A DNA stretch of 64,000 nt from Planctomycetaceae bacterium (GTDB lineage: Bacteria; Planctomycetota; Planctomycetia; Pirellulales; Pirellulaceae). A program made the translations under genes and the position numbers. Position 1 is the stretch's first letter, and each line of letters starts with the position of its first letter. The notes below the pieces were generated by a model, which saw only the letters and a list, made by a program, of their open reading frames with translations, was not told the origin of the DNA and did no database searches. Where the stretch lies: assembly GCA_002726515.1 (NCBI GenBank), contig PBTE01000041.1, positions 1 to 64,000 of the forward strand. The letters are read 5' to 3'. Positions 10,149-50,358 of the stretch are shown here, in pieces.

Positions 10149-10913
10149 CTAAATGTGTACCGCGGCACCACCATCAACAATCAAGGTTTCTCCCTGCACC
10201 ATGTCACTCAACGGACTAGCCAGGAACAGGCACGCGTTCGCCACGTCGTCGGCCATGAGCATCCGATCACCCATCATGGTCTTTTCGCGCCGACGCTCAA
10301 ACATGACGTCCGAGTCGGGTATCATGCGGGTCGAATCGGTTTCGACCAGACCTGCTTTCACCACGTTTACATTGACTCCCCGGTCACCGACTTCAAGCGT
10401 CAGATGTCGTGCCAGACTTTCCAAGGCCGCCTTGGAACCACCAATCAGTCCATACCAGGGAAGCGCCATTTCCGCTCCGTGGCTGGAAATAGCAATCACT
10501 TTACCACGACCCGTGCTCTGCTCTAACAAAGGAATCGACCGTTGAACCAGAAGCACCAAGGCCAAAGCATTGATGTTCATCGCGTTGTGGAAGTGTCGTG
10601 GATTGGCTGACAACAATGGTCGAAATCCGCCCGTCGCTGCATTGCTGATGAGCACATCCAGTTGCCCAATGTTGTCTTGTACAAAATCCATCATACTTGC
10701 CACATCATCTTCCTCGCTGACATCCGCTTTGATGACGTAAGCACGTCTCCCCCGTGCTTCAATCTGTTCAGCAACTTCTACTGCGGCAGATTTTGATGAA
10801 ACGTAATTGATGATGATATCGGCCCCAGCTTCAGCGAAACGCATGGCACACGCTCTACCGATTCCGCGCGATCCTCCAGTGATCAGTGCAACTCGATCTG
10901 TTAAATCAATCAT
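10149..10913 (-). CDS. Short-chain dehydrogenase, FabL-type enoyl-ACP reductase
   Basis: The 254-residue SDR has ITGGSRGIG at 11-19. Its overall layout matches FabL (the NADPH enoyl-ACP reductase of Bacillus): NAATGGFRPLL after beta-4, MNINALAL, SSHGAEM, Y154 followed six residues later by K161 (YGLIGGSK), and a SDMVQGETLIVDGG C-terminus. A Tyr-x6-Lys spacing marks enoyl reductases; ketoreductases have Tyr-x3-Lys. The synthase has KR and DH but no ER domain, so this protein plausibly supplies enoyl reduction in trans. It is the last gene of the PKS operon, and its start overlaps the PPTase stop by 8 nt. An ordinary SDR role cannot be excluded. Confidence 0.85.
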   Translation of the reverse strand: MIDLTDRVALITGGSRGIGRACAMRFAEAGADIIINYVSSKSAAVEVAEQIEARGRRAYVIKADVSEEDDVASMMDFVQDNIGQLDVLISNAATGGFRPLLSANPRHFHNAMNINALALVLLVQRSIPLLEQSTGRGKVIAISSHGAEMALPWYGLIGGSKAALESLARHLTLEVGDRGVNVNVVKAGLVETDSTRMIPDSDVMFERRREKTMMGDRMLMADDVANACLFLASPLSDMVQGETLIVDGGAAVHI

Positions 10914-11625
10914 GGGTGACTCCTGTGATGGGTAGAGCGTTGGACGGAATACTCAGAGTTGCAGTAACTGCGACGTGACCATCGACCTCCCACGTCTTGA
11001 GTCTCAACTCATCCTTCCACACGTTGTCATAGTATCGGCACGTCCATGGGCCTGTGTTCCAAGAAACTTCAACCTGACGAGGAGCAAACGATTCACCACG
11101 GTTACAAGCTTTGTAGATGGCTTCCTTAGCTGCCCAAAGGCGGCAAACCTCCTTGGTTCTCTGCTCCTCTCCATCTGAAATCTGATCGATTCGCTCCCGT
11201 TCCGAATCCGTAAACCAGTTTGTAAGAAAGCTCGCTGGCAACGGAGCCAGATGGCACAAATCAACTCCCACCTTCGTTTCAGCTGAAGTACTCAAGGCTA
11301 CCAGGAAATTTGTGTCTGAATGCGTAATAGAAAGTGTGTAAGGCAATTCGCGCTGTTTGAGGCAGATTTTGGGCCGGGTCGGACGAAACTGCTCGTCCAT
11401 GGAACGAATGCTGAAGCACCGTAGACCTTCCACAAACTCCGGGTGATTCTCCCGAATCAGTTGTTTGCTCACCCAGCGGCCCGCTAACCAGGCCCGTCTG
11501 CGGCCACGGTGCGAAAATCGCCCCAACTCGATCCGTTCCCAATAGCTCAACCAGTCTAAATTGTCCGGAACCTCCCACGAGTCAGAAAACCTGCCGCAGC
11601 GAAGATGTATGGGTGCATGAACCAT
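10906..11625 (-). CDS. 4'-phosphopantetheinyl transferase (Sfp/EntD superfamily)
   Basis: The 239-residue protein has the two diagnostic motifs: KVGVDLCHL, with the Mg-binding Asp, and RLWAAKEAIYKA, with the Glu/Lys of the W-x-x-K-E-A signature. It would transfer the phosphopantetheine arm from CoA to the Ser of the carrier proteins. The targets are very likely the five ACPs encoded three genes upstream and the ACP of the 1710-residue protein. The ATG lies 6 nt after the synthase stop, and the 3' end overlaps the enoyl reductase gene. A dedicated PPTase is normal for PUFA-type synthases. Confidence 0.92.
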   Translation of the reverse strand: MVHAPIHLRCGRFSDSWEVPDNLDWLSYWERIELGRFSHRGRRRAWLAGRWVSKQLIRENHPEFVEGLRCFSIRSMDEQFRPTRPKICLKQRELPYTLSITHSDTNFLVALSTSAETKVGVDLCHLAPLPASFLTNWFTDSERERIDQISDGEEQRTKEVCRLWAAKEAIYKACNRGESFAPRQVEVSWNTGPWTCRYYDNVWKDELRLKTWEVDGHVAVTATLSIPSNALPITGVTHD

Positions 11626-11631
11626 CAGACG

Positions 11632-14600
11632 TCATCCTTCACGGGGAATTAAAACGCCGTGGTATCCTTCGACCATCACGATGACCGATCCGTCATCTCC
11701 GTGAATATTGAAATCATACACACTGTGTTGTTCACTCAGTTCTCTGCAACGGACAACCGCTAAAAGTTTTTCTCCCACGCGCGGAGAACGTCCCACGCGC
11801 AACCTTTCAATTGATTTTGGTATTTTGGCAACACCTCGAATTTTCTTGCGGACATGAACCCCACAGGTATAAAAGGCAGCATCGATAGCAGACGCGGGAA
11901 TGATCCACTGGTCGCCTTGTCTGCATCCGGCCAAATCTTGAGTATCCAGGGATTCAATTACACCCCAGCCACGATCGCCCGCGGTAACAACTTCTTTCAG
12001 GGCACGAAATACTTCGCCATGATATAACACCACGCCATCCGGATAGTTAAATTCCTTGAGGGGTTCGGGTGCCAGAGGTGGTTGTTCAGCAACAGGTGCA
12101 GCGGGTTCGTCCGCCAATTCAATCCTTGCTTTCATGTAGGGCCGGTCAGGATGTACCAGTTTGCCAGCCCGGCTGTAAAAGTCGCTCGTAAGTAAGCAGG
12201 ACACTCCGTTCGGACCGGCTTCCAAATGGACTTTCGCCTGGGAGAGCCTGTCGGTGTGAAATCGCATCGGTTCCAGAAGTTGTACATCGCAAATCGCCGC
12301 GACAAAACGGGAACCTTCTTGGACAGCCAGAGTTGCCTGAGCCACACTCGACATACTGATGACAGCCGGCAGAATAGGCCGTTTTTTGAACAGATGCTGG
12401 GTTAGGAACGGTTCCGACATCGGGTCAAAATTGACAGCGGTGACAGCGCCACCGGCCTCATCCACAGCAAGTATTTCGTCCACAAGCGGAAAATGTTTAA
12501 TACACGGTCGGGTCGCCACCGCAACCGCCGTCATGCTTTCCATGGCTACGGCCGTGGCAGTCATGTTACTATCCGCCCGGGGGGGTACCGACACTTTCGG
12601 CGAAGAAGCCGCTTTAGAGCCACCTGACACCTTACTGGCATATTCCGGGTTAAGTTTGTGAAACGGCCAGCCCGTAATCAAAATTTCCCTTTCAGGAAGC
12701 CCGGCGCGGATTTCGTTAATCAGGTGATTCGCACCTTCTTTGGTAGGCATATATGTAACGCCACCAACTTCTCGAAGATGCCGAGACTCGGGACGAACAG
12801 CCATGCCCACCTCGTCCCAAGCATGCCAATGAAAACAAGTCGATTTGCAGTCGGTACGTTGTTGACGGAACCAGTCAACTAGTTTGCAAAGCATGTCGTT
12901 GGCCATGCCATAATCGGTTTGTCCGAGACCACCAAACCGACCGCTAACCGAGCCAAACGCCAGGAAGTAACGGAGTGGATCTTCGCGTGTCAGATCCATC
13001 AGGGCTGCCGCGCCATCTACTTTGACAGCAATCGTTCGTTCCACCAGGTCGCGTTTTTTCTTCTCGAAGCGCAAAGAACTTTCAAATCCAGCTCCATGCA
13101 CAATGCCTTCCAGCGGACCGTCCTTCTTGCGGATCTCGTTCAACACCTGGGCCAACGCAATCCGGTCGGTGATGTCAGTGGCGTAGTAGGTGAATTGGAC
13201 ACCCTCTTCGCGAAACATGCGTAAGTTCTTGTCAATCTCAATCGCTTTTTCTACCTTACCCCACGTTGCTGCGGGCACCTCTTTTCGGGCAACGGCCTCT
13301 TTCATCACTTGAGCCCGCAATTGCTTTACCTGTGCGTCGTTCATGTTTCGCCACGAGTCATCAATTTTCGGCACGGGGCTGGAACCAATCAAATGTAATT
13401 TGAGCCCATACCTCTTACCTAACTCCCGTGCCACCACAGCGGTCACACCACGTGCACCTCCGGTCACAACCCATGTACCACCCTTCGGTATATCCTCTTG
13501 TTGAGAAAGTTCGCCGATGGGTTGCACGACCGGTCGCACGACCAGGCGACGATCTTGTTCGTAACCTACTTCTACTTCGTTCAGATCCACCGCGTGTTCC
13601 AAACAAATCGTAGCGGCAATTTCAGCGGGCGACTGGCTTTCTGACACATCCACGATTTTGGCTCTGAACCTGCCTTGTGTCTTCACGCCAAGTTCGATCT
13701 TCATCGACTTGACAAGCCCTGTCAAAGCACCGCTTTCGGCACTGCGTACAGTCCCTGAAAATCCAAAGTCCCCGCCCATGACGGTCGCAGCCATCACGGT
13801 CGCCTGCTCCAGCGCATCCGCCTCCAACAGTAACTGGCACCATCTCTGACAGACAAAATAGGGAAGACTTGCTCCACGTCGCCTACGTTGGATCCAAGTC
13901 GATTCCTCCGTACTCGTCGTGGCATTGTCATCGTAAGGTGTCAACAGAAAAAGATGCAGCACGAGACTGTCCTGAAACATCTGTTCTAGATGGGAAAGAA
14001 CTTCGTCGATGTCATCGGACACGGCCAGAATGTGTGCAGCAGTGCCACTTGATTGCAGACGTTGTTGGAGTGCCCGGGAGACGCTATTGTCACCCACAAT
14101 GATGGCCGAGCCATTCAGCGCCGTCTGATTCGAATCAGGCTCACTCGTCTCGACAGTCCGCATCACAAAACGAAAACAGACATCTCCGTTCCGCGAAGCC
14201 GGCCCAACTCCATAATCTTGCAATGCCGTCTGCGCTGCTTCACCTTTCAAAATTGAGCGGAGCTTTCCATTATTCGAGGATCGCTGTACATTCTCTATGG
14301 AGGCGGGCAACCTCGTGCCATTTGACTTCGTTAAACTCGCCGGAACCGCCGTCAACAATTCGTTAACATTCAAAACACGGTATTCATCGTTGTCGCACTC
14401 TTCAACATCCGGACAAGTGATCCACATTGTCCCCGCCGCGGGTTGCATCACCAGGCTGATTTGATTATCCACGCGCCGGATTGTGTTCATCGTGGGGTGC
14501 GGTGTCTCACGGTCACGACCGATATCGAAGCGGTCCCGCAGCGTCGCTTGTGCGTGCTCCACAGAAACGTCCTGCTGGTTCGCCGTGTCGATCAACTGTT

Positions 14601-17600
14601 GTAGGCGTGTCGCTCTGTGCACAGAATGCTTCGGTGGTGTGTCAACTGGCTGGTGCAATCGGCAATGATTCGCACTAACGTGTCGCTTGACATTGCGCTG
14701 CACCTGTAAATCTTGCCCGTCGTATTCGAGATAAGTAATCTCATCAGAAGGTGCGTGACTGATACATAAAGACCAGCCTCCCATGCCGCAAAAACAACGT
14801 GTAATTTCAATAGCTGTGTCAATGTTGTCTGCCTGGCTAAGGATGCTCTTGACAATCGCATTGTGAGCCCGGCCTTGTTTGATTTCCCGACGACGAGGCA
14901 AGTCCAGGAGCATGGTGCTGGTGACGGCAATTCCCCGGCAATTCATACCATTGATGCCAGCCAGTTCACCCGCCAGACCCAGTACAACATGAGGAATTCC
15001 ATTCGTCGGCTTCCTCACCTGAACGTTCCGTCGGAGGCATTTCGTGACACTCAAAGCCAGGGGCAGGTCTTCGTTTGCGGCGTGGATCAGACCTGCACTC
15101 GAATTCGTCGAAGCCGAGACGGCAAATTGGCTGCAACCCGATCCCTTGTCAGGATAGAGCATGAGGTTGTGTGCAATCACCGATTCATGCGACACACCGG
15201 CACCGTCAGCGATACCGCGCAGCTCTTCTAAATCATCAGGCTGGAAGTAACGGTCTGCCGCTGCTGCGTCTTCCTGAATGTCTGGCAAGCGATGCCACTT
15301 TGATCCCACGAGATTCGCATAGCGCTGCAGAATATTACGAATGACTGGTCCTTCCACCTGACCCATCTGGTAGCCCATGTCATAAGCACTACCCGACAAA
15401 GTGAGAATGTTTTGATGCTCCGATTTCTCCGGCTGTTCTGACAAGTTGTCAGATGACACGTTGAATTCGGCTTCGCGCGCGGATTCCGTGGGCACGATTT
15501 CGCTAGTCGAATCAGAACTCTCGGGCTGTCGGCTGTCCAAAGCGGGTGAGCCAAACATCGCCTCGTCTGCATGTACGGCGCTGAAGGCTCCCGCGCATTC
15601 CAGGCAAGCACGAACGTGAAGCAGCTGGCGGAGTCCGGAACGCTTCGGCTGATCCGATCCGATGATCACCACATCACGATGTCCCAGTAATCGCCGGTGC
15701 AGTTTTGTCAGAATCTGATGTGGCCCGACTTCGACAAAAATATTATTTCCGCCATGGACAAGGCGATCAATCAAATCATCGTAATGGACAGGATCCGTCA
15801 TCTGGGCGACAAGGTTATGCCGAATTTCATCCGGGTCAGCCACGTACTTGTTGGTAACGCTGCTCAGTAGCGGAATCCGTGGAGGGCCTATTTCAATTTG
15901 GGCGAGGGCCTCGGCAAAAGGCAATTTCGTATCCTGCATTAAGGGGGTGTGGAAGGCTCGAGGAGCCGCGAGAACCCGAGTGACAATGTCGACCTTCTTC
16001 AACCGTTCGGCCAATGTTTTGACAAATGATTCCTCGCCACCCACCACGATCTGGTCAGGCGCATTGCGGACGGAGACATGAATCCGACCCTGCAAGTCTG
16101 CCGCATGTCGTTCCAATACCTCAGGACCCGCAGCGACCGAAAGCATGATGCCACGAGCATTCTTACTATTTTCAATCGCGGAGCAACGAGCATGTGTCGC
16201 CAGGGCAGCAGCCTCAAAAGACCAGGCTCCAGCAGCCAACAGTGCGGGAAATTCCCCAAAACTGTGTCCCGATATGCAATCGGGTTGGATGTTCATGGCG
16301 CGTAGTGCGGACAAGACGATCGTGTCGGCGGTAAGCAATGCCAGTTGAGTCTGCCATACATCGACTCCCAACGTTTCTCCACGTTCCCAGGCGACCTGCG
16401 AAAAATTGGCAAACCCTAACTGAGTGAGTCTGGCGTCTAACTTGCTCATGGCATCCGCTGCAGGGGGGAAACATTCCACAAGCGATTTCAGCATACCGAT
16501 GTATTGCGATCCGTGCCCGGGAAAGAGAAAGGCAACACGGGGAGACACATCGGACATTTGATGACAGAAGACGCCCCGTTCCGCCAGAACACCCAGTGAT
16601 TCCGAACGACTGAGAAGCGGGGCTGCCAGGTTTAGTTTCTGATGTAACTCCTCCGGATTCTCAGCCACGACCGCCATGCGCATTCGCTGATCCGGAGAAA
16701 ACCGATCTTGAGCGTCTGCGTGCTGAAATAAAAGTTTGGTATCTTCCACGGACTTGCTGAGTGGGACGACACGATTCACCAAATCTGGCAGACTTTCGGC
16801 CCCCAAACGGACAATGCGGAATTTGCCGAACAAGTCAGGTACTGGCATGTAGGAATCGGAATGAGCGACCCCTTGCACCGCTGAACCAGCCGTGCTTTGA
16901 CGTGCCGGACTCTTCGGAGTTTCCTGCACCGGAACTTTCTCACCACGCTCGACAAGAAAATGATAAGCAACGCGATTTTCGTTCGCCGAACTCACTCCGG
17001 CAATCGCTCGTCCATCCTCTGTGAGGGCGTGCAAAGGTGTACTCGACGCGTTCACGGCAAGACAATCCTTCTCAGTAGCCACTGCTGCGGAAACCTGATC
17101 CAAGAACAGATTGGCCGGTGCGTTCATCTGTTCCAGAGCATCGACAGTCTTCAACAGTCCTGCCATCCCGGCAGTTCCTCCAGTATGACCGATCTGACTG
17201 GTGAGAGTTCCTAAAGTCAGAGGCTGTGGGCGTTGCGATCCGTAACACCCAGCCAGAGCCGCAATTTCCTCCCGGTCCGCTTCAGCAACCCCGTAGGCCG
17301 CAGTTTCTACGACACACACCTCCTGGGATTGAATGGCTGCATGCTGGTGGCTGCGCTGTATCGCCTGTTGCATGGCCTGCTGGAAAGAATCTGAACTGGC
17401 TACACCGAAGCCGCGGATGATCGCACGCACCTTGTCACCATCGCGTTGAGCGTCGGATAACCGCTTCAAAACGACAACTGCCGTGCCCTCACCGGGAAGG
17501 AATCCATTGGCTTGTGCGTCCAGAGGGTTGGGTGGGGAATCACTGGCTAGCACCCCACGGCAAGCCTGTTGTTCGTACGTCATGTACCCCATTGAGCGAT

Positions 17601-19764
17601 GACCGGCGGTACAGATCATCATTTCACAGTCGCCCGCTTGTAAAATATTCATCGCAGCCGTGAGCGCGCTCGACCCCGATGTACTCCCTGAATCGATTGC
17701 TGCACCACCGCCCATCAAATTGTAAGCCTTGGTAATTCGAGACACCAAGGTATTGGTGGTATAACTTCCCGTTTCATCAACTATCGAAGGGTGGTGGTCG
17801 ATCAGTTTCTGCTGGTATTCATCGGCCAGCGAACTAGTCAGGTCTTCCTTCACACCCACATTTCGCAAAGCGTTGATTAAACGTTCTTTAAATTCGGGCA
17901 GACGAAGCCCCATCTGTAACGACTCGTGATATTCGCCGCTGGACATGGCACCAACGCAAACGCCCGTTCGCTTACGATTGAATTCTCTATCATGGAATCC
18001 AGCCATCCGCATTGCTTGTTCTACTGCATCCAACATCATGAATTGCAGTGGGTCGGCCGTCGCAATCTGTTTGGGCGGCACACGGTGTGTTTTCCAGTCA
18101 TATTCGAAGTCAGTCACAAATCCACCCTGAATCGACAAGGTGTTTCGCAAATGTTCCGAATGGCGACGCGCCACCTCGTGATCCCATCTTTCCACCGGAA
18201 GCTGAGATTTGCCATCCGTTCCTGATCGAAGCATTTCCCAAAACGCTTCCACGGTTCGAGCACCCGGCAAAACGGCCCCCACACCGAGAATTGCTATTGG
18301 TTCACAAGGGGTGCTTTTTGTAGCCGGCAAGTTCGAAGACAAAGAAGAAAGGGCCGACCCGTCGTCCAGCACGATGTGTACATTCAAGCCCCCTATGCCA
18401 ATGGAATTCACTGCCGCCCGCCGAGGCTGCCCGTCGGCCGGCGTCGGCCAGGGTGTCGGCTCGAGAGGTACTACGAAGGGTGAATTTTTCCAGTCGATTT
18501 TTGGGTTCAACCGCTTGACATTCGGCTGAGGTGGAATCATTCCATTCTTCATACTCAAAATCGTTTTCAACAAACCAGCCATGCCGGCTGTCTCGATCGT
18601 ATGACCCACATTACCTTTCACACTACCGATGGGAATTTTTGTTCCCGGGGGAAGTTTGCCTTCCAGTGTATCGGCAAGGGATTGCAATTCCGTCTGATCG
18701 CCGACCTGGGTCGACGTGGCGTGAGCTTCGATGTACTGAAGTTGGCTGGGATCCAAATCATTTCCGTATGCCCGCTGGATGGCTTCAATTTGTCCTTCTT
18801 TTCGTGGGGCCCACAAACTCTTTCCTTTGCCATCCGTTGAGAGCCCAATCCCTCGAATAAGTGCGTGAATCTGATCGCCGTCAGCCAAGGCGCGATCCAA
18901 AGTCTTGATCAAGAGCGTGACATATCCCTCACCATTGACAAGCCCGTCGGCGTCTTCGTCAAACGGGCGGGTGCCTGTCCCACTAAGGGACTGTGCACGC
19001 GAGAAGAGAACCAGACTGTCGAATTTGCAATACGACGCACCGCCCACAATCGCCATATCAATTTGTCCCAGTTGCAGAGCTCGCGCACCCATCGCCAGCG
19101 AGGCAAGTGACGACGCACAGGCTGCATTCACCACCATGCTGGGACCATCCAACCGCAACATCTTGGTAATCAGTGCAGCACCCCGATGGGGACTCACATT
19201 AAGATCTTTTCTGGAAAGCGGCTCGGCCCGAGATTCCCTGACTTCGCGAACAACCTCTCGAATCACATCACTCGTACGGCCACTCGTGAGCTGATCGATG
19301 TTGTCGATTTCCCGTAAATATTCGGCTACTTGTTCAATCTGGCTGGCAAAGCATATCTCACCCCCCAGTTCGCTGGCCTTCACGTGCCCGATGTAGACAC
19401 CAACTCTTTCACGCAGCGACATGTCGAAAGGATCGAAGGCGGCATGGCGGCAAGCATCGGCCGCCACATCGCAAATTGTCAAATGGGCAACATCTGAAGT
19501 TGCTAGGTCCTCGGGAGTGAGAGGACAGCGACTGGGATCTATGGGCTGATAGTCCATCAGACAAGCAATGGAGGCATAGGATTTACAAAGCACTCCCTTA
19601 TTCGGATCGAAATAGAGCTGCCGATTGAACCTCTCAGCTGGTATTTCTGCCTCCGTACAACGCCCCTGCAGAAGCAATTCCCAATACTCATCCAAATCGT
19701 TTGCACCAGGCATGCGGCACGCCATGCCCACAACTGCCAACGGGACATTATTGAATTTCGCCAT
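11632..19764 (-). CDS. PUFA-type iterative PKS: KS - KS/CLF - AT - C45 Ntn-hydrolase - KR - DH
   Basis: The protein has 2710 residues. KS1 (1-470) has NAACASS with Cys216, EAHATST His348 and GNVGH His388, so it is catalytically complete. KS2 (490-940) has Ser694 at the Cys position and ETAAYG with Ala822 in place of His, so it is a chain-length-factor-like partner. AT (1075-1370): GHSFG with Ser1168, and RAFH with His1272, the malonyl type. Residues 1452-1798 are a C45/penicillin acyltransferase-like Ntn domain (GSAYDMGYQMG; GSGCSQ with Cys1544; AANEDLP). KR (1840-2370): VTGGARGVT, Ser2272, Tyr2285 and Asn2289. DH (2420-2710): His2457 and Asp2628. There is no ACP and no ER domain; both are on neighbouring genes. 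A Ser/Glu-rich linker precedes C45 and an Ala/Val-rich linker precedes DH. ATG start, 3 nt after the ligase stop. Domain calls are strong; product unknown. Confidence 0.93.
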   Translation of the reverse strand: MAKFNNVPLAVVGMACRMPGANDLDEYWELLLQGRCTEAEIPAERFNRQLYFDPNKGVLCKSYASIACLMDYQPIDPSRCPLTPEDLATSDVAHLTICDVAADACRHAAFDPFDMSLRERVGVYIGHVKASELGGEICFASQIEQVAEYLREIDNIDQLTSGRTSDVIREVVREVRESRAEPLSRKDLNVSPHRGAALITKMLRLDGPSMVVNAACASSLASLAMGARALQLGQIDMAIVGGASYCKFDSLVLFSRAQSLSGTGTRPFDEDADGLVNGEGYVTLLIKTLDRALADGDQIHALIRGIGLSTDGKGKSLWAPRKEGQIEAIQRAYGNDLDPSQLQYIEAHATSTQVGDQTELQSLADTLEGKLPPGTKIPIGSVKGNVGHTIETAGMAGLLKTILSMKNGMIPPQPNVKRLNPKIDWKNSPFVVPLEPTPWPTPADGQPRRAAVNSIGIGGLNVHIVLDDGSALSSLSSNLPATKSTPCEPIAILGVGAVLPGARTVEAFWEMLRSGTDGKSQLPVERWDHEVARRHSEHLRNTLSIQGGFVTDFEYDWKTHRVPPKQIATADPLQFMMLDAVEQAMRMAGFHDREFNRKRTGVCVGAMSSGEYHESLQMGLRLPEFKERLINALRNVGVKEDLTSSLADEYQQKLIDHHPSIVDETGSYTTNTLVSRITKAYNLMGGGAAIDSGSTSGSSALTAAMNILQAGDCEMMICTAGHRSMGYMTYEQQACRGVLASDSPPNPLDAQANGFLPGEGTAVVVLKRLSDAQRDGDKVRAIIRGFGVASSDSFQQAMQQAIQRSHQHAAIQSQEVCVVETAAYGVAEADREEIAALAGCYGSQRPQPLTLGTLTSQIGHTGGTAGMAGLLKTVDALEQMNAPANLFLDQVSAAVATEKDCLAVNASSTPLHALTEDGRAIAGVSSANENRVAYHFLVERGEKVPVQETPKSPARQSTAGSAVQGVAHSDSYMPVPDLFGKFRIVRLGAESLPDLVNRVVPLSKSVEDTKLLFQHADAQDRFSPDQRMRMAVVAENPEELHQKLNLAAPLLSRSESLGVLAERGVFCHQMSDVSPRVAFLFPGHGSQYIGMLKSLVECFPPAADAMSKLDARLTQLGFANFSQVAWERGETLGVDVWQTQLALLTADTIVLSALRAMNIQPDCISGHSFGEFPALLAAGAWSFEAAALATHARCSAIENSKNARGIMLSVAAGPEVLERHAADLQGRIHVSVRNAPDQIVVGGEESFVKTLAERLKKVDIVTRVLAAPRAFHTPLMQDTKLPFAEALAQIEIGPPRIPLLSSVTNKYVADPDEIRHNLVAQMTDPVHYDDLIDRLVHGGNNIFVEVGPHQILTKLHRRLLGHRDVVIIGSDQPKRSGLRQLLHVRACLECAGAFSAVHADEAMFGSPALDSRQPESSDSTSEIVPTESAREAEFNVSSDNLSEQPEKSEHQNILTLSGSAYDMGYQMGQVEGPVIRNILQRYANLVGSKWHRLPDIQEDAAAADRYFQPDDLEELRGIADGAGVSHESVIAHNLMLYPDKGSGCSQFAVSASTNSSAGLIHAANEDLPLALSVTKCLRRNVQVRKPTNGIPHVVLGLAGELAGINGMNCRGIAVTSTMLLDLPRRREIKQGRAHNAIVKSILSQADNIDTAIEITRCFCGMGGWSLCISHAPSDEITYLEYDGQDLQVQRNVKRHVSANHCRLHQPVDTPPKHSVHRATRLQQLIDTANQQDVSVEHAQATLRDRFDIGRDRETPHPTMNTIRRVDNQISLVMQPAAGTMWITCPDVEECDNDEYRVLNVNELLTAVPASLTKSNGTRLPASIENVQRSSNNGKLRSILKGEAAQTALQDYGVGPASRNGDVCFRFVMRTVETSEPDSNQTALNGSAIIVGDNSVSRALQQRLQSSGTAAHILAVSDDIDEVLSHLEQMFQDSLVLHLFLLTPYDDNATTSTEESTWIQRRRRGASLPYFVCQRWCQLLLEADALEQATVMAATVMGGDFGFSGTVRSAESGALTGLVKSMKIELGVKTQGRFRAKIVDVSESQSPAEIAATICLEHAVDLNEVEVGYEQDRRLVVRPVVQPIGELSQQEDIPKGGTWVVTGGARGVTAVVARELGKRYGLKLHLIGSSPVPKIDDSWRNMNDAQVKQLRAQVMKEAVARKEVPAATWGKVEKAIEIDKNLRMFREEGVQFTYYATDITDRIALAQVLNEIRKKDGPLEGIVHGAGFESSLRFEKKKRDLVERTIAVKVDGAAALMDLTREDPLRYFLAFGSVSGRFGGLGQTDYGMANDMLCKLVDWFRQQRTDCKSTCFHWHAWDEVGMAVRPESRHLREVGGVTYMPTKEGANHLINEIRAGLPEREILITGWPFHKLNPEYASKVSGGSKAASSPKVSVPPRADSNMTATAVAMESMTAVAVATRPCIKHFPLVDEILAVDEAGGAVTAVNFDPMSEPFLTQHLFKKRPILPAVISMSSVAQATLAVQEGSRFVAAICDVQLLEPMRFHTDRLSQAKVHLEAGPNGVSCLLTSDFYSRAGKLVHPDRPYMKARIELADEPAAPVAEQPPLAPEPLKEFNYPDGVVLYHGEVFRALKEVVTAGDRGWGVIESLDTQDLAGCRQGDQWIIPASAIDAAFYTCGVHVRKKIRGVAKIPKSIERLRVGRSPRVGEKLLAVVRCRELSEQHSVYDFNIHGDDGSVIVMVEGYHGVLIPREG

Positions 19765-19767
19765 CTC

Positions 19768-21264
19768 TCAGCCTCGAATCAGTTTTTGATTGTGGTTACG
19801 CTGCAACTTCTCGACGAATTCGATTCGGCTGGGAACCTTTGCCGCATCGAGCCGGCTTCTCAAAAATTCTTTCACGTGGCCCTGGTTGGGCATGGAGTTA
19901 TTCCGAGGTACCACATACGCAACGATTGATTCGCCCAGCTGCTCATCACTGTATCCGGCTACGTAGGCCTCGGTGATGTCCGGATAACCTACCAACTCTT
20001 GTTCAACTTCTTCTGGACTCACACTGATTCCCCGAGTGATGATGATGTTTTTTCTGCGTCCGCGAATGTAGAGAAACTGGTCCTCATCCAGGTAACCGCA
20101 ATCTCCAGTCCGCAAATAACCGTCCTGAATCGATTCAGCAGTCAAATCGGACTTTTTGTAGTATCCCAGCATGACATTGGGGCCCTTCACCGTAATTTCA
20201 CCCAACTGCCCTGCAGGAAGCGAACGCCCCAGCTCGTCAATGATCTTGATTTCCACATGCCTTAATGCGCGTCCAGAACTTCCCATCTTGTTCATTTGGT
20301 CTTCAGGCAGCAGGGTTGAACAGCGAGGCGCGGCTTCCGTGAGCCCATAGCCGTAATAGAAGCCAACATTCGGAAACGAGCTGATGACTTGGCGAAATAC
20401 ATCCTGTGCAAATGGTGCAGAAGCGAAAAATATTTTCTTGACGGACGTAAGCTTGCGTCCCACCTCAGAAGCCTTGGAAAGCATATTCATCAAAATGAAC
20501 GGTGTCACATTAGCCACCGTAATCTGTCGCTCCTGCAACAAACGACAGAAGTTGCCCAGTACGAAGATGCCTTTATAGATATGAATGGTCATTCCCGCAG
20601 ACAGGTAAGCCAGGAATTCGGTGGTGTGAGTTCCCACGGCGGTCATCGGCAGGACGATTGCAGCACGATCTTCTTTCGTTAATTGAGCGACTTCGTTGAA
20701 CGACTCGATGTTCGCGAAAATGTTCTGGTGAGATAGCATCACACGTTTTGGATCATTGGCCGTACCCGATGTCGAAATCATCACCGCGACGTGATCATTA
20801 TTATTGGTCGATGGCAAGAGAGAGCGTTCTGCCTGAACATGACTGGGCATCCATTCCAACTTCATATCACGGCCACCGCTGCTAAGCGTGATGACCGCAC
20901 GGACAGCTGGAACACTTCGGGCTGATTGTTTGACGGCTTCAACGTGCTTGGCGTCGGTCACCACGTAGTCTGCGTCGCAGTACGCCAATTCAGACGGCAA
21001 ACGATTCAACGGCAAGGAAACCGGCGTGGGAGCAGGAACTGCGTCTGCCTTCGAAATACCAAAGTACCCCACCGCATACTCAATGGAATTCCCGATAAAC
21101 ATCAAACCGTGCCCACCAATCAAACCGTTGCTTTTCAGCAAATGGCACAGCTTGTCGCTCAGTGCATGAAGATCCCCGTAGGTAATGCAATCCTCTCCGT
21201 GGAGAATCGCCGGAAGAAGCGCACCTTGGGCCGCGCCACGAATCACGATATCGTGGATTTTCAT
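19768..21264 (-). CDS. Acyl-AMP/acyl-CoA ligase feeding the PKS
   Basis: This class I adenylate-forming enzyme has about 498 residues. It has the P-loop MISTSGTANDPK, the A5 motif GYGLTEAAPR, GYLRTGDCGYLDED, the hinge RGRRKNIIITRG, and the A10 lysine near the C-terminus (NHNQKLIRG). It would activate a carboxylic acid as acyl-AMP and pass it to CoA or to an ACP, most likely the starter unit for the neighbouring synthase. Frame-open starts lie at GTG 21297, which overlaps the ACP stop, ATG 21279 and ATG 21264. The last is preferred because family members begin about ten residues before the HDIVIRGAAQ helix and a GGAA lies upstream. Substrate not predictable. Confidence 0.88.
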   Translation of the reverse strand: MKIHDIVIRGAAQGALLPAILHGEDCITYGDLHALSDKLCHLLKSNGLIGGHGLMFIGNSIEYAVGYFGISKADAVPAPTPVSLPLNRLPSELAYCDADYVVTDAKHVEAVKQSARSVPAVRAVITLSSGGRDMKLEWMPSHVQAERSLLPSTNNNDHVAVMISTSGTANDPKRVMLSHQNIFANIESFNEVAQLTKEDRAAIVLPMTAVGTHTTEFLAYLSAGMTIHIYKGIFVLGNFCRLLQERQITVANVTPFILMNMLSKASEVGRKLTSVKKIFFASAPFAQDVFRQVISSFPNVGFYYGYGLTEAAPRCSTLLPEDQMNKMGSSGRALRHVEIKIIDELGRSLPAGQLGEITVKGPNVMLGYYKKSDLTAESIQDGYLRTGDCGYLDEDQFLYIRGRRKNIIITRGISVSPEEVEQELVGYPDITEAYVAGYSDEQLGESIVAYVVPRNNSMPNQGHVKEFLRSRLDAAKVPSRIEFVEKLQRNHNQKLIRG

Positions 21265-21297
21265 GGTGTTTAATTCCATGACCGAGTCACGTAACAC

Positions 21298-23469
21298 TCA
21301 GTTCTTTTCGGCGAGTTTACGTCCAATCAATGAAGCAAACGCACCGGAGTTATTGAGACTCTCTATTTCGAGATCCTCGAGGCTAATCGAGATGGCGTAG
21401 TGTTGTTCGACCGCCGTGATCAAGTCCAGCATTCCGACCGAGTCGAGACCTACATCATCGATCAATCGTGTGTTACTTGTCAGGCTAGCCTTAACGTCGT
21501 TCGCCATACTCCTTTCCGTGATAATTCGACTCAGCGTTTTCAGGATCGATCGTTCATCCGTTGACACTGGTTTTCCATTCCGATGGTCCGTCGAATTTAT
21601 CGAAGACGAAGTTGGTGCTAGCGGCACCGATGCATCCGTTGCAGACTTCGAAGGGGGGGGGGCACCTTGGAGAAAAATCATCACATCGCGTAATGTGGCA
21701 AAATCGTCCAAAGTTAGGTCTTCGGTGGGTGTGACATCGAACTCAAAATACTCTCGCAGTTCACCAAATAACTGGGCTTTCTTGATACTGTCGATTCCCA
21801 GGTCAGCTTCCAAATCGGCATCCAACTCGACAATTTCAGGGGGATACCCGGTTTGCTCAACCACAAAGTTAATCAGGAATTCGTCCAGGTGTTCTGTGGG
21901 AGGCGTCTTCTCTGCGCCTGCTGGACTCGTGATCGTCGTGCCCGGATTCGAAGGCTGCGTCGGCTGGGACGTCGTGGTTTCTTCAAGGTTCTGATCCGTG
22001 AACTGCCCTGATGGGGATTCTTCTTGAGGCGTCTGAGGGTGAATTCCCTGTAGAAAATTCAACACGTCTCGCAACGTTACAAAATCGTCGAGCGTTAATT
22101 CTTCGCTGGGAGTGATGTCGAAGTATTCTCGAAGTTCCCCGAAAAGCTGGGCTTTCTTGATGCTATCGATTCCCAAATCAGCTTCAAGATCTGCGTCCAG
22201 TTCAACAATCTCTGCAGGATAGCCTGTTTGTTCCACGACGAAGTTGACCAGGAACGGTTCCAGCTGTTCTTGCGACGGTGCCCTATCTGTCGCCGCTGTC
22301 GTTGTCGTGGATAGGCTCGAGTTTGATGTGTCCTGTAACTCGGCTGCGGAGTCCACTGCATCACGCCCGCCAGAAGACACCGGCTCAGTTTTCACCTGAT
22401 CCAGAGCAGGTGGTGATGGCGACTCAACCTGAGTCGAACCGGGCGTTTGCTGGTTTTGTTGAGTTCCCTGCAAAAACTCCATGACGTCGCGCAAAGTCAA
22501 AAAGTCATCCAGTGATAAATCTTGGCTGGGAGTTATGTCGAAGTACTCTCGAAGTTCACCAAACAACTGTGCTTTCTTAATACTGTCGATGCCAAGATCG
22601 GCCTCAAGATCCGCGTCCAACTCGACGATCTCCGCGGGATAACCCGTTTGTTCGACGACGAAATTGATCAAAAACGGTTCCAACTGATCAGAAATCGGCT
22701 CCTCAGTATCGGTATTGACCCTCCCAGAACCTTCCGGAACAGAGTTAGACGTGACCGTCGAGACCGGCGACGAAGATGAAAAGGTAGTCACGGTACTCGC
22801 CGACTGGTCATTGGAAACCGGCGGGTTTGCAGCGGGCACGGACGCCTGATTTCCGATGTCGCTACCGTCCGATGCCATACGAAGATAATCGACTACATGC
22901 GCCAGCGTGGAAAAGTCGTCGAGTGTCATATCTTCGGTGGCGGTCATTTCAAAATCGAAGTATTCCCGCAACTCACCAAACAATTGTGCTTTTTTGATAC
23001 TGTCAATGCCGAGGTCCGCTTCCAGGTCGGCATCCAAGTCAACAATTTCTGCGGGATAACCGGTCTGTTCCACCACAAAATTGATTAGAAATGTTTCCAG
23101 TTGTTCAGGTGGGGGTGTAGATTTCTTGGCCCGTGAAGTGCCATTGTTGGAGTGTGCCGCTTGGCTCTCTGCCACTGCGACAGGGATCGCCGGAGAGGGC
23201 TCGTTATCGGACGGAAATGGCGTTGTCGCCGACTCCGTTGTCACTTCGCCCGACGTAATTTCCCGACGAGAGCCAGGCTCCGCAATCGCCGCCAATTCAC
23301 CTGGAATTTGATGCCGGGGCACAGTACCGACTTGCGACATCGCCTTGTCACGCATTTTGTTCTTGCGAACCATCGTTGCGTCAAAATGCACGATACTGGA
23401 AGAATGCGATGCACTCGATTCAGGATCGCCGTTCTTGGACGCAACTCCAGGGTTGTAGGAAGTGGTCAT
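21298..23469 (-). CDS. Acyl-carrier protein array: four tandem PUFA-type ACPs plus a divergent fifth
   Basis: The protein has 723 residues from the ATG, or 730 from a TTG at 23490. Counting from the TTG, ACPs lie at about 129-206, 268-343, 408-483 and 533-609. They are nearly identical, and each carries DLGIDSIKKAQLFGELREYF, the PUFA-synthase signature, with pantetheinylated Ser164, 303, 443 and 568. A fifth, unrelated ACP (645-730) has DVGLDSVGML with Ser684. Linkers are Ser/Thr/Pro/Gln-rich and presumably flexible. In classical PfaA proteins the ACPs are inside the synthase; here they are a free-standing protein. AGAAG lies 4 nt before the ATG at 23469. The stop overlaps the earliest possible start of the ligase. 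Confidence 0.93.
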   Translation of the reverse strand: MTTSYNPGVASKNGDPESSASHSSSIVHFDATMVRKNKMRDKAMSQVGTVPRHQIPGELAAIAEPGSRREITSGEVTTESATTPFPSDNEPSPAIPVAVAESQAAHSNNGTSRAKKSTPPPEQLETFLINFVVEQTGYPAEIVDLDADLEADLGIDSIKKAQLFGELREYFDFEMTATEDMTLDDFSTLAHVVDYLRMASDGSDIGNQASVPAANPPVSNDQSASTVTTFSSSSPVSTVTSNSVPEGSGRVNTDTEEPISDQLEPFLINFVVEQTGYPAEIVELDADLEADLGIDSIKKAQLFGELREYFDITPSQDLSLDDFLTLRDVMEFLQGTQQNQQTPGSTQVESPSPPALDQVKTEPVSSGGRDAVDSAAELQDTSNSSLSTTTTAATDRAPSQEQLEPFLVNFVVEQTGYPAEIVELDADLEADLGIDSIKKAQLFGELREYFDITPSEELTLDDFVTLRDVLNFLQGIHPQTPQEESPSGQFTDQNLEETTTSQPTQPSNPGTTITSPAGAEKTPPTEHLDEFLINFVVEQTGYPPEIVELDADLEADLGIDSIKKAQLFGELREYFEFDVTPTEDLTLDDFATLRDVMIFLQGAPPPSKSATDASVPLAPTSSSINSTDHRNGKPVSTDERSILKTLSRIITERSMANDVKASLTSNTRLIDDVGLDSVGMLDLITAVEQHYAISISLEDLEIESLNNSGAFASLIGRKLAEKN
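21664..23106 (-). repeat. Four-fold imperfect coding repeat (ACP units)
   Basis: Units of about 230 bp at 22873-23106, 22462-22689, 22042-22269 and 21664-21894 encode the four similar ACPs and are also close at DNA level. Each contains recognisable versions of the stretch coding for VVEQTGYPAEIVELDADLEA (split by linkers of 100-190 bp that are not conserved). The pattern points to tandem duplication with later homogenisation. Confidence 0.85.
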
Positions 23470-23508
23470 AATCTTCTGCTCACTTGTCAATATTGCGACT
23501 TTGTTTCT

Positions 23509-24981
23509 CTAGGGACTCGGCTGTGTCACATGTCCCAGTACCCTCGCCAGTTGTGCAGGTGGTGGCGTGTTACCTTGGATCAACGCTTGCGAAGTCCTCA
23601 AAGATTCCCCAACAGAAATTTCGTTTCGCAATAGTCGCGAAAAAGTGTCGGTGTTGAGATAAAAGTAGTGTTCAGAGCGAGTCGATAGGCCTGGGCGAGC
23701 CGACACAGGGCGCAGTTCGCTGTCCAGCATGAGTTCCCACTGGCCCCCGCCTGGTCCAGTCACCTGGAGACCAACCGGCTGTCCCCGGTCCCAGTCCAAA
23801 TCTGTGTTCAATAGTTGTTCGAGATGCTGTTGGATATCCAACTCCAACTGAATGGGAGCAGGGCGAGGCCAACCAAAATTGGATTCGATCGCATATTTAC
23901 AGAGATGAACCAACATCTCGCAATTCACTTCGGGAGGCGGAAGATGTGGCGCAGCACGACGAGTGTTGGTCAAGTCAAATTCCGGATCATCCTTCCAATA
24001 CGACTCGTAAATCTTCATCTGATCGCGGAAATACTCCACAAACTCGTCTTGGTTCAACGACCAGGAGGTACTCTGAGTCTGGTCCTCACTCTGTGAAACA
24101 TCTCCATAGGTCAGGAATCCCTGAACCATCGCATCACGCATGACGTTCGCGGTGACGGGCTTGTCAGGTGCCAAATGGAAAATTTGGCCGTGGTGTTCAG
24201 GGTGCGCGATGATGTGAGTCATCACTTCTGATATCCAATCCACGGGAATGAGATTTTTGCGTTCGTGACCCTGAATTTGTATCGATTCCTGTAACGGTGC
24301 GGCGAGTGCTACGTCCCGAATAATGTGCTTGAACATCGTGTGCACAAGCTTCAGAGGGACGTAAAAACCATGAAATGTCGGTGTATATCCAGTGCGAGAA
24401 TCGCCAATGATGATCGCGGCCCGGTAAATCGTGGGGGGATCAATGTGGCGAGCGGCTCGTATCAGTTGTTCTCCTTCAAACTTGCTTCGCTCGTAATCCG
24501 TGTTGAGCTCCTGGCCCTCGTCGAGTTCCCCTTCGTAAATCAGTCCCTCGCGTTTCCCACAGACATACGCAGTTGAGACGTGGTGGAACTGCCGGATTCC
24601 ATTACGTTTACAAAAAGCCAATGCATTCTCCGTGCCACCCACATTGGTACGCCACGGATCCTCGTGAGGCCGCTCTCCATAGTAAGTCACGCTGGCCGCA
24701 TTCTGGACGAGGGACGTGCAATTGGCTGCTACCCAACGCAATTGTTCGTCCGACAAGTCAAATCTGTCGTTCGAGAGATTTCCCTCGAGAATGACAGGGC
24801 GCGGAAGTGCAAAACCCGCTAGTTTCTCCCAGCGAGTCATGATCGATTCTACACGTTGGCGGGCGGACTCCAGTTTAGTGGGGCGCACCAAAACCGCGAC
24901 GCGTAGGCCGGCTACCAGGAAATCGTTCAGTAGATACGACCCGAGTAGACCCGTAGCACCTGTAAGTAAGTGATAAGCCAT
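23509..24981 (-). CDS. Thioester reductase-like protein with a C-terminal SCP2-like domain
   Basis: Residues 1-370 are an extended-SDR thioester reductase (NAD-binding_4 type): LLTGATGLLGSYLL at the N-terminus, AASVTYYGERPHED, VSTAYVCGKR and YERSKFEGE with the Tyr-x3-Lys pair. In NRPS/PKS systems and HglB-type proteins these domains release ACP-bound acyl chains as aldehyde or alcohol. Residues 380-490 look like a sterol-carrier-protein-2 lipid-binding fold (WELMLDSELRPV, YFYLNTDTFSRLLRNE, QGNTPPPAQLARVLG). First gene of the operon. The open frame reaches a TTG at 24987, but ATG 24981 is the better start, giving 490 residues. Reductive release is inference from family; the SCP2-like call is moderate. 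Confidence 0.85.
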   Translation of the reverse strand: MAYHLLTGATGLLGSYLLNDFLVAGLRVAVLVRPTKLESARQRVESIMTRWEKLAGFALPRPVILEGNLSNDRFDLSDEQLRWVAANCTSLVQNAASVTYYGERPHEDPWRTNVGGTENALAFCKRNGIRQFHHVSTAYVCGKREGLIYEGELDEGQELNTDYERSKFEGEQLIRAARHIDPPTIYRAAIIIGDSRTGYTPTFHGFYVPLKLVHTMFKHIIRDVALAAPLQESIQIQGHERKNLIPVDWISEVMTHIIAHPEHHGQIFHLAPDKPVTANVMRDAMVQGFLTYGDVSQSEDQTQSTSWSLNQDEFVEYFRDQMKIYESYWKDDPEFDLTNTRRAAPHLPPPEVNCEMLVHLCKYAIESNFGWPRPAPIQLELDIQQHLEQLLNTDLDWDRGQPVGLQVTGPGGGQWELMLDSELRPVSARPGLSTRSEHYFYLNTDTFSRLLRNEISVGESLRTSQALIQGNTPPPAQLARVLGHVTQPSP

Positions 24982-25014
24982 CTTCAATTGTCACGCATCT
25001 TCAATGAGCGGGAG

Positions 25015-25264: not shown

Positions 25265-25471
25265 CTAGTGTGGATCGGCTAACTTGCCAGACCGTCTGTG
25301 CATAACCAGGAAATATTTCGGCCAAATGGGGATAAAACGGGGCAAACTGGGTTGATTATTCCGATAGCGTAATTCCTGCTCCGCGTAAGTCCCATATTTC
25401 CGAAAACAGTCGATTCGACTAACAGTACAAACCGACAAATCTAGGTCGAGTGATTCCACTGGCTCCTTCAC
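25265..25471 (-). CDS. Possible small protein coupled to the glycosyltransferase gene
   Basis: The 68-codon frame has an ATG overlapping the stop of the upstream glycosyltransferase (ATGA), an arrangement typical of translational coupling. The sequence is basic and contains two Cys (VCTVSRIDCFRK) and the segment IPIWPKYFLVMHRR. No family is recognised. It may be a chance frame. Confidence 0.25.
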   Translation of the reverse strand: MKEPVESLDLDLSVCTVSRIDCFRKYGTYAEQELRYRNNQPSLPRFIPIWPKYFLVMHRRSGKLADPH

Positions 25472-26175
25472 TCACCGTTGGTGTCGGTCTGTGAATTGGA
25501 ACCGCTGGGTGGATAAAATGTTGCCAAATAGTCGGGACTTACGCCCAGCCACTCAGCCGTTAAAAGGAGCCAATTCTGCAAAGTCTGCCAGACAACTCCC
25601 CGTTGCTGCCAGCGTCTGGCGCTGGTCACCAGGGGACCTGTGAGAAGGACAATTCTTCCCTGTTGGCGAAGACGCCTCATCAGGCGTACATCTTCCATGA
25701 GCCGTACCGGGGGGAAACCGGCGATATCGTGGAAGATCGTCCTGCGCACAAAAATACCCTGATCTCCGTAAGCCATTGAAAACCAGTGAACTCGAGCTGC
25801 GTTGCCTAATTCGAGCAACCTGAAAAGGATCCCTTTGGCCTCGATGTGGTGCTTGAATGCACCACCAACTAAACGATCATCTTGAAGCACCAAGCGGATT
25901 TGGTCCAGGGAGTCACGGCCCAAACGACTATCGGCGTGAAGAAAGAGCAAGACGTCACCGCTGGCCCGTTCCGCTCCGGCATTCTGTTGACCGGATCTGC
26001 CAGGATCACAGTGAATCACTTGGCAACCCAATGCTGCGGCAACCTCGGCGGTCCCGTCGGAACTGGCACCGTCCACAACGATGATCTCATCTGCTCCGGC
26101 TTGTTTAGCACTGGACACCGCTGCAGAGACCAAGCGAGACTCGTTAAGTGTGGGAATAATGACGGAGATGCGCAC
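25468..26175 (-). CDS. Family 2 glycosyltransferase, TIGR04283-like
   Basis: The 235-residue GT-A glycosyltransferase has ISVIIPTLNES at the N-terminus, EIIVVDGASSDGT, a DXD-like LFLHADSRL near residues 77-85, and a MEDVRLMRRLRQQGR segment in the second half. It lacks transmembrane helices. It matches the subfamily annotated rSAM/selenodomain-associated transferase 2, whose acceptor is unknown. It starts 5 bp after the stop of glgC, so the two are probably co-transcribed. A dolichol-phosphate-mannose-synthase-type activity is possible, but nothing in the sequence settles it. Confidence 0.85.
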   Translation of the reverse strand: MRISVIIPTLNESRLVSAAVSSAKQAGADEIIVVDGASSDGTAEVAAALGCQVIHCDPGRSGQQNAGAERASGDVLLFLHADSRLGRDSLDQIRLVLQDDRLVGGAFKHHIEAKGILFRLLELGNAARVHWFSMAYGDQGIFVRRTIFHDIAGFPPVRLMEDVRLMRRLRQQGRIVLLTGPLVTSARRWQQRGVVWQTLQNWLLLTAEWLGVSPDYLATFYPPSGSNSQTDTNGE

Positions 26176-26180
26176 GGTTG

Positions 26181-27449
26181 CTAAACGGAATCCAAAGCCA
26201 GCTGATGACTTGGTTCCAGCTGTTCAACGCCATCTCCCTTGGCAATTACCACCACCCCAGCATCGCTGATGGTGAATCCGCGTTCTCGCTCCAGATCCAA
26301 GTCGAATCCGATCTGAATTCCCGGTGGAATATTCACGCCTTTGTCGATGATAGCCCGGCGAATCTGAGCGTGACGACCAATTTGAACATCCTGGAAGATG
26401 ATGGAGTCCTTGACTTCGGCGTAACTGTTCACGCGGACGTTGGGACCGACAACACTGTGCAGAACCCTTCCGCCCGAGATGATACTGCCGTGACAAACAA
26501 TGCTGTCTAGTGCACAGCCAACTCGACTTTCGTCTCCTGCCGGTCCAGAAAAAACAAATTTCGGCGGCGGCAAGTTAGGTTGATAAGTTCGTAGCGGCCA
26601 GGGTTTGTCGTACATATTGAGCAACGGGTCGACTGCCACCAATTCCATATTGGCTTCGTAATAGGCGTCTAAAGTGCCCACATCACGCCAGTACGCGTCC
26701 GTCTTGCGATTCTCGTCTCGGAAAGGAAATGCGAAAACTCGATGGGTGTTAATAATCGATGGAATGATATTCTTGCCAAAATCATGGCCGCTGGCGGGGT
26801 TGTTGGCATCCTGGCAGAGCTGCTCGAACAGAAAACGTGCTGTAAATACGTAAATGCCCATCGAGGCCAAACAGTAGTTTTCGTCCGACGGAATGGTCCG
26901 CGGGTTTTCTGGTTTTTCCTCGAAACCGACAATTCGTTTTTGGGAGTCGATCTCCATCACTCCAAACTGTTGAGCAGTTGAACGATCGACTCGCAAGGCC
27001 CCGACGGTCAAATCGGCATTGTTCCGGCTGTGAAAATCAACTATCGAACGGTAATTCATCTTGTAGATGTGGTCACCTGCCAAAACAACCACGCAATCAG
27101 GACGATCCTTTTCCAGAGCGTAAATGTTCTGATAAACCGCATCTGCCGTACCCTGATACCAATGTTCGTCGATGCGCTGTTGAGGCGGAACCACATCGAT
27201 GAACTCTCCCAACTCACGGCAGAAAAACCGTCGCCATCCCCGGTTGATATGCCGGTCGAGACTCATCGCTTTATACTGGGTGAGAACCAGCATTTTCCGC
27301 AAACCACTGTTCAAACAGTTCGACAGAGCGAAATCAACAATCCGATAGTTGCCTCCAAAAGGCACTGCCGGCTTGGCTCGATCTCGCGTCAAGGGCTCCA
27401 GCCGAGAACCTTTACCTCCTGCTAAAACGACGGCCAAGACATTTTTCAT
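26181..27449 (-). CDS. glgC: Glucose-1-phosphate adenylyltransferase
   Basis: The 422-residue protein, normal length for GlgC, makes ADP-glucose from ATP and glucose-1-phosphate for glycogen synthesis. It has the pyrophosphorylase motif VLAGGKGSRLEPLTRDRAKP, with the N-terminal Arg/Lys allosteric region (split as VLAGGKGSRLEPL and TRDRAKP). WYQGTADAVYQN, VVLAGDHIYKMNY and the FEEKP sugar-binding motif follow. The second half is a left-handed beta-helix, seen as repeated HGSIISGGRVLHSVVG and IIDKGVNIPPG. Transcribed first in a pair with the glycosyltransferase. An ATG start with a CGGAG ribosome site. No other glycogen genes are in the window. Confidence 0.96.
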   Translation of the reverse strand: MKNVLAVVLAGGKGSRLEPLTRDRAKPAVPFGGNYRIVDFALSNCLNSGLRKMLVLTQYKAMSLDRHINRGWRRFFCRELGEFIDVVPPQQRIDEHWYQGTADAVYQNIYALEKDRPDCVVVLAGDHIYKMNYRSIVDFHSRNNADLTVGALRVDRSTAQQFGVMEIDSQKRIVGFEEKPENPRTIPSDENYCLASMGIYVFTARFLFEQLCQDANNPASGHDFGKNIIPSIINTHRVFAFPFRDENRKTDAYWRDVGTLDAYYEANMELVAVDPLLNMYDKPWPLRTYQPNLPPPKFVFSGPAGDESRVGCALDSIVCHGSIISGGRVLHSVVGPNVRVNSYAEVKDSIIFQDVQIGRHAQIRRAIIDKGVNIPPGIQIGFDLDLERERGFTISDAGVVVIAKGDGVEQLEPSHQLALDSV

Positions 27450-30007: not shown

Positions 30008-30033
30008 GATAGATTTCTTCTCGCCGCACTTAG

Positions 30034-31134: not shown

Positions 31135-31145
31135 GGTGCCCTTTT

Positions 31146-49860: not shown

Positions 49861-49978
49861 ATGACTCCCAATTTCTTAATCGCCCTTGGACGGGCCCCCG
49901 GGATCTCTTTATCCCCCGGAATGTCGTCCACCACTTGTCGCAACTCCAATGAGTCGCCCTGAACAATCTCAGTCCAAT

Positions 49979-50341: not shown

Positions 50342-50358
50342 AACAACCTCCCACTCAA

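Follow-up and report, generated by a model that had tools for sequence, protein, structure and literature searches.

Organisation of the operon

We analysed a 64,000 nucleotide stretch of DNA, hereafter the window, from a Planctomycetaceae bacterium (assembly GCA_002726515.1, contig PBTE01000041.1, positions 1 to 64,000). The window contains an operon of six genes, and its largest product is a synthase with an embedded C45 N-terminal nucleophile (Ntn) hydrolase domain. All six genes lie on the minus strand between positions 10149 and 24981. The order of transcription is thioester reductase (TR), a protein of five acyl carrier protein domains (ACPs), AMP-ligase, synthase, 4'-phosphopantetheinyl transferase (PPTase) and short-chain dehydrogenase/reductase (SDR). 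The genes are spaced by 18, 0, 3 and 6 bp, with one overlap of 8 bp. Thus, an earlier interpretation made from the letters alone (the sequence-only reading) was right to describe six co-directional and tightly packed genes. It overlooked the C45 domain, a divergent fifth ACP and a large gene at positions 4335 to 9467.

Domains were assigned to the six proteins from Pfam and NCBIfam profile matches. The TR (positions 23509 to 24981, 490 amino acids) starts with an ATG at 24981, within an open reading frame that opens with a TTG at 24987. It matches Pfam NAD_binding_4 (E 1e-42) and NCBIfam Thioester-redct (E 1e-36). The top structural match of its AlphaFold2 (AF2) model (mean pLDDT 78.5) is the myxalamid R domain 4w4t (E 6e-18). 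The C-terminal region of the TR (positions 23527 to 23829) may be an SCP2-like lipid-binding domain; this tentative assignment follows a sub-threshold Pfam SCP2 match in the L071 homologue only (19.4 against 21.3 bits, E 0.0014). The carrier protein (21298 to 23490) has five stretches matching Pfam PP-binding. Four carry the motif DLGIDSIK, as the earlier description of tandem LGIDSIK ACPs had it, and the fifth reads DVGLDSVG. The AMP-dependent acyl ligase (19768 to 21297) is about 509 amino acids long and matches Pfam AMP-binding (E 3e-61). The PPTase (10906 to 11625) was recognised by Pfam ACPS (E 1e-12).

The SDR (10149 to 10913) is a probable trans enoyl reductase, judging from its sequence. 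Its best PDB match is FabL (3oic, E 3e-55), far ahead of the next (6e-35). All 30 aligned rows, among which four genes are represented twice, have the Tyr-x6-Lys spacing. The FabL-like SDR of the sequence-only reading is consistent with these data, although its 266 bits fall short of the 328 bits set as cut-off for the FabL model of NCBIfam.

Pfam and NCBIfam domains, and comparison with the family described below, divide the synthase (11632 to 19764, 2,710 amino acids) into two ketosynthases (KS), an acyltransferase (AT), the C45 domain, a ketoreductase (KR) and a dehydratase (DH). KS1 (18361 to 19755) has C216, H348 and H388 at what we take to be the catalytic Cys/His/His positions. In KS2 (16963 to 18297) the corresponding residues are Ser694, Ala822 and His860. 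Because the Cys and the first His are lost, KS2 resembles a chain length factor (CLF), which agrees with the active and inactive KS pair recognised previously. The AT (15595 to 16542) has Ser1168 in a GHSFGE motif, and matches Pfam Acyl_transf_1 (E 3e-36) and the fabD model (E 2e-48). The KR (12745 to 14181) contains the GGARGVT motif and active-site Ser, Tyr and Asn residues. The DH (11647 to 12450) appears to be of the hot-dog, polyketide synthase (PKS) type. Its Pfam PS-DH score is just below the cut-off (21.9 against 23.7 bits); the domain is conserved in relatives, and the family profile scores 365 bits, with the window sequence included in that profile.

The C45 domain of the synthase

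The C45 domain occupies positions 14395 to 15423. Residues 1457 to 1780 of the synthase, between the AT and KR, match NCBIfam model NF040521 with 135.9 bits (cut-off 85, E 1.9e-39). When a three-sequence C45 profile was searched against the PDB, isopenicillin N acyltransferase (2x1c) was matched with an E value of 6e-6. In addition, Pfam AAT scored above its cut-off in the related loci L068 and L080. A Foldseek search with an AF2 model of the domain ranked isopenicillin N acyltransferase first, followed by acid ceramidase and NAAA (E 6.5e-16 to 1e-11). Alignment of the model with 2x1c by VIA-align gave a Z score of 29.1 and an rmsd of 3.2 over 309 residues. Hence, the domain is predicted to have the Ntn fold of isopenicillin N acyltransferase, NAAA and acid ceramidase.

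In the structure alignments Cys1544 (model residue 105) is matched to the residue that begins the mature chain in NAAA (126), in acid ceramidase (143) and in penicillin V acylase (1). The nucleophiles of these reference structures were read from the titles of PDB entries, which name the substitutions C126A, Cys143Ala and Cys1Ser, respectively. The window domain keeps the full set of residues: Cys1544, preceded by Gly1543, together with N1564/D1566 and N1699, which we take to be the Asp and Asn partners of the active site. The predicted self-cleavage site and nucleophile, Gly1543-Cys1544, are encoded at positions 15133 to 15138 and are kept in relatives. If the domain works like its kin, cleavage here would split the 295-kDa synthase into fragments of about 167 and 128 kDa.

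Isopenicillin N acyltransferase, acid ceramidase and NAAA thus appear to share fold and nucleophile position with the window domain, but they are stand-alone proenzymes, whereas the window domain is buried in a megasynthase. We know of no Ntn hydrolase that forms a domain within a polyketide or fatty acid megasynthase, nor of a PKS activated through its own autoproteolysis. There is a precedent, however, for C45 action on a substrate attached to a carrier protein, namely AzsT of azaserine biosynthesis. According to the part of that report available, AzsT takes an N-succinyl group off a carrier-bound intermediate, but it is a separate protein (PMC10445470). By analogy, and speculatively, the window C45 domain could attack an N-acyl bond in a chain still attached to its carrier.

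A family of planctomycete synthases with intact or degraded C45 domains

By sequence comparison, the window synthase belongs to a distinct family, found only in planctomycetes here. A KS2 profile was searched against 392 genomes of the phylum; 14 matched with E values below 1e-140, and the next best was 4e-80. The window sequence, which is in the profile, gave 4e-198. For KS1, the best 24 of 79 loci listed from named genomes have 43-65% identity. All are planctomycete-named, save one named only 'bacterium', and they include Rhodopirellula sp. JC639, a Gimesia and a Pirellula. The remainder of the 79 are at most 36% identical. Across the order, 46 of 396 genomes have an open frame of at least 1,300 amino acids with a C45 match, counted as matches rather than individually confirmed synthases; the family is common in its order.

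The common architecture of the family is KS-KS/CLF-AT-(ACPs)-C45-KR-(KR)-DH, usually with a TR and a FabL-type SDR and often with a PPTase. At 46 loci with a complete synthase, including that of the window, the neighbours are a FabL-type SDR (40/46), a TR (35/46), a PPTase (27/46) and a free ACP protein (12/46); these counts are lower bounds, owing to contig ends. The separate ACP protein is present, as the sequence-only reading stated, but it does not set this cluster apart. None of the other loci fetched has the exact six-gene set, with the ligase also searched in 145 other genomes of the order, so that the earlier failure to match it stands as far as tested. The set is unmatched because the ligase is without a close match in other genomes: none reached E 1e-80 in those 145 genomes, and its best similarity among fetched loci is 94 bits, compared with 1,141 to itself. 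The rearrangement of genes is less notable than the C45 domain.

To compare C45 domains we built a profile from loci L020, L022, L023, L024, L026 and L052-L054 and the window. The resulting alignment has 53 rows, window included, of which 52 are distinct and 47 of these are in synthases. Duplicates L029, L150 and L188 were dropped before counting, and L080 was dropped afterwards as a duplicate of L171. The short or weak matches L018, L070, L083 and L088 were also removed (L083 and L088 look degenerate or domainless). Excluded from the 47 were stand-alone C45 proteins of 350-420 amino acids (L184-L187 and L197). These are close to the embedded domain and have all catalytic residues intact; the L185 gene sits beside an SDR and a KS-KS protein.

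The Cys, the NxD motif and the Asn are all present in 26 of the 47 distinct synthases, the window among them. Twenty lack two or three catalytic residues, and L151 lacks the Cys only. Among the 26 intact domains, 24 have Gly as the residue before the Cys. This near all-or-none loss is the pattern expected of catalysis. We also constructed a quick KS tree of 55 rows, 44 of which could be scored for C45 state (24 intact); it has long branches, including that of the window, which has no close relative (KS identity at most 49%). The tree requires at least three changes of C45 state. A single clade of 21 rows (SH-aLRT 99) holds 19 of the 20 degraded domains. Rows with an intact domain make up most of the remaining deep branches, and the window falls outside the degenerate clade. 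Catalytic C45 is probably ancestral on this tree, lost once in the large clade and also in L151 and the L081 group.

In a first, smaller set, intact C45 domains went strictly with a single KR; the larger set broke this link, since L166, L167 and L172 are intact and have two full KRs. For intact C45 against free ACPs, the tree provides only two to three independent changes. At two further loci, L154 and L155, the synthase contains two DHs, and the gene after it encodes a GH3-type acyl-adenylating enzyme rather than a TR.

In the degraded clade, an aminotransferase lies beside or near the TR at no fewer than 10 of 19 synthase loci; other members showed none in the available stretch. The stretches are long enough at L017/L052, L019/L054 and L021/L053, where a class-III aminotransferase, then an AMP-ligase and a condensation-like enzyme, follow the TR. 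In two of these three a Rieske oxygenase gene precedes the SDR. In the window, no homologues of the L017 aminotransferase and condensation genes scored above the reporting limit. It is suggestive only, and drawn from gene content, that C45 chemistry and an aminotransferase/condensation route are alternative ways to an amide; the pattern amounts to essentially one loss event.

A proposed mechanism and its alternatives

The operon most likely encodes an iterative, reducing lipid synthase with reductive release that also has an active, self-cleaving C45 enzyme for N-acyl bonds. We give this proposal roughly even chances. In it, the PPTase would arm the tandem ACPs and the AT would load malonyl units. 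KS1 and its inactive KS/CLF partner would elongate the chain and set its length. The KR, DH and trans FabL-type SDR would reduce every cycle, so that the chain would be mainly saturated or partly reduced. The ligase would activate a carboxylic acid that serves as starter or as co-substrate, and might load it on the divergent fifth ACP. The TR would release the chain as an aldehyde or alcohol. The C45 domain would cut the synthase between Gly1543 and Cys1544, and the two halves would stay together. The freed Cys1544 could then form or cleave an amide (N-acyl) bond, with the chain either still on its carrier or already released. The data show the domains, the gene layout, the catalytic residues, the predicted fold with its nucleophile position and their conservation in the family. 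We infer the active reductive cycle, the mode of release by the TR and the self-cleavage; the substrate given to the C45 domain is the most speculative part.

Several observations weigh against this proposal. The window C45 domain has no Pfam match even at E 1, and its AF2 model was built on four sequences with a mean pLDDT of 67.4. The DH match is weak, and an SDR of the FabL type might instead act as a ketoreductase. Either the TR or the C45 domain could plausibly release the chain, and the window shows no obvious amine donor. Finally, a whole clade keeps its C45 domain though it is dead, so the domain can be mere structure.

A bolder form of the proposal is possible, though we rate it distinctly lower. 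Here, the megasynthase would need to cut itself in order to function, the C45 domain splitting the KS-CLF-AT half from the KR-DH half. The new N-terminal Cys would take the completed chain off the ACPs and pass it to an amine, or trim an N-acyl group. The clade that went over to a reductase, an aminotransferase and condensation enzymes would later have lost this activity.

The degraded domains raise the alternative that C45 is structural only, a docking or spacer element in an ordinary reducing lipid synthase with TR release. Retention of the domain without two or three catalytic residues in 20 of the 47 synthases, and L151, minus the Cys alone, would fit. However, the window keeps Cys1544, N1564/D1566 and N1699, lies outside any degenerate clade, and the loss elsewhere is nearly all-or-none. 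Hence, we consider a purely structural role unlikely for the window domain.

The operons of the degraded clade bring to mind the zeamines. In the available part of the zeamine report, the TR (Zmn14) is proposed to yield an aldehyde, a class-III aminotransferase (Zmn12) an amine and a free condensation domain (Zmn19) an amide, with Zmn13 as the SDR (PMC3547906). The window cluster might similarly make a zeamine- or fabclavine-like aminolipid: the TR aldehyde would be converted to an amine by an aminotransferase encoded elsewhere, and the ligase or C45 domain would add or remove an acyl group. L017/L052, L019/L054 and L021/L053 hold zeamine-type parts after the TR, but those operons have a dead C45 domain and the window has no related aminotransferase or condensation gene. 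This route is doubtful for the window. The zeamine cluster shares PUFA-like KS/CLF machinery, an SDR and a stand-alone TR with the window, and the related planctomycete operons also have counterparts of its aminotransferase, ligase and condensation-like enzyme. As described in the same source, it also differs in having PfaC with a FabA-type DH and a PfaD-type enoyl reductase, neither of which the window has; the window also lacks an aminotransferase but has C45 (PMC3547906).

Next to be weighed is a long-chain fatty alcohol or diol that is then decorated by glycosyltransferases, as heterocyst glycolipids (hgl) are. Heterocyst glycolipid islands hold a TR and a PPTase, and the kinds of part are, to our knowledge, otherwise the same (KS, CLF, AT, ACP, KR, DH, TR, the PPTase HetI and an SDR). 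Conversely, we know of no FabL-type SDR, ligase or C45 domain in the 19-gene hgl island of Anabaena, membership of which would call for at least 7 homologues of its genes, although the comparison is by description only. The likeness is one of iterative KS/AT/ACP/KR/DH machinery and very long chains, as far as the portion available describes it (PMC11804610). An hglE-KS cluster was assigned by antiSMASH in the related Kothea flammea, with no product given in the part of the source available (PMC13190842). Glycosyltransferase genes lie upstream in the window. However, they are at least 480 bp away and look like a separate polysaccharide locus. We regard an hgl-like product as improbable.

A polyunsaturated fatty acid (PUFA) or trans-polyene synthase is the least credible product class, and very improbable: the tandem LGIDSIK ACPs and similarity to the PfaA model favour it, but the cluster has no PfaD-type reductase and no FabA-type dehydratase/isomerase, and a trans FabL-type reductase occurs at 40 of the 46 loci. 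The PUFA-type parts of the sequence-only reading are present and the set is unusual, but a redistributed PfaABCD system is not what we find. The synthase scores 655.7 bits with the PfaA model, below the cut-off of 1010.1. PfaD (TIGR02814) was not found anywhere in the source genome, which is 94.8% complete. No FabA-type dehydratase was matched by Pfam in the six proteins; a genome-wide search was not made.

Relation to described secondary lipid synthases

In the accessible portion of their study, Shulse and Allen describe 20 types of secondary lipid cluster and place planctomycetes under types I and J (PMC3098273). Types I, J and R, as described there, do not have the window layout. Type R is among the closest described systems: a single large protein combines KS, MAT, CLF and KR with several ACPs, a PPTase follows, and the product is given as unknown. 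The order KS-MAT-CLF-ACP-KR differs from the window order KS-CLF-AT-C45-KR-DH with free ACPs, FabL-type SDR, TR and ligase (PMC3098273). Two planctomycete loci, L157 and L158, are type-R-like and only distant relatives, with KS profile scores of 379 bits compared with 560-850 in the family. The word planctomycete does not occur in the part available of a survey of PUFA-like hybrids from 2026 (PMC13291983). As far as listings and abstracts of the open-licence literature show, neither this gene set nor a PKS with an internal C45 or Ntn domain has been described. The window cluster is a variant of the secondary lipid synthases with a domain combination that we have not found described.

Naturally living and dead C45 domains can be compared within the family, one member of which comes from a sequenced isolate, Rhodopirellula sp. 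JC639. If the proposal were true, it would mean new chemistry of lipid release or tailoring in a phylum with few known natural products.

Neighbouring genes and further loci

The gene overlooked in the sequence-only reading lies 681 bp downstream of the operon, on the minus strand (positions 4335 to 9467). Domain matches indicate a protein of 1,710 amino acids with a fatty acyl-AMP ligase (FAAL), KR, ACP and thioesterase (TE). Its membership of the cluster is uncertain; it may be part of the pathway. A full-length match was found in none of the 145 other genomes of the order. Two terminator-like sites occur near the operon end, compared with 1.2 expected by chance, and no promoter-like site was found ahead of the TR gene. 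Upstream, also on the minus strand (positions 25468 to 32348), are genes for glycosyltransferases, a GlgC-like nucleotidyltransferase and an AsnB-like enzyme, which are probably a separate polysaccharide locus.

The TR alone was rejected as a marker of the cluster: TR homologues occur in 52 of 98 relatives (E at most 0.001), mostly without a synthase in the stretch. Many planctomycete genomes have such a homologue with no synthase in the fetched stretch (L016, L025, L027, L028 and L030-L048), and some of these adjoin condensation-like genes. The source genome itself encodes a second TR, 43% identical, on contig C57 (positions 49503 to 50531, L049). It ends at the contig edge, beside a condensation-like gene of 503 amino acids, and the two are perhaps a second lipid cluster. 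Contig C130 encodes, around position 16000 (L058), another large KS protein, whose open frame spans 2,492 amino acids.

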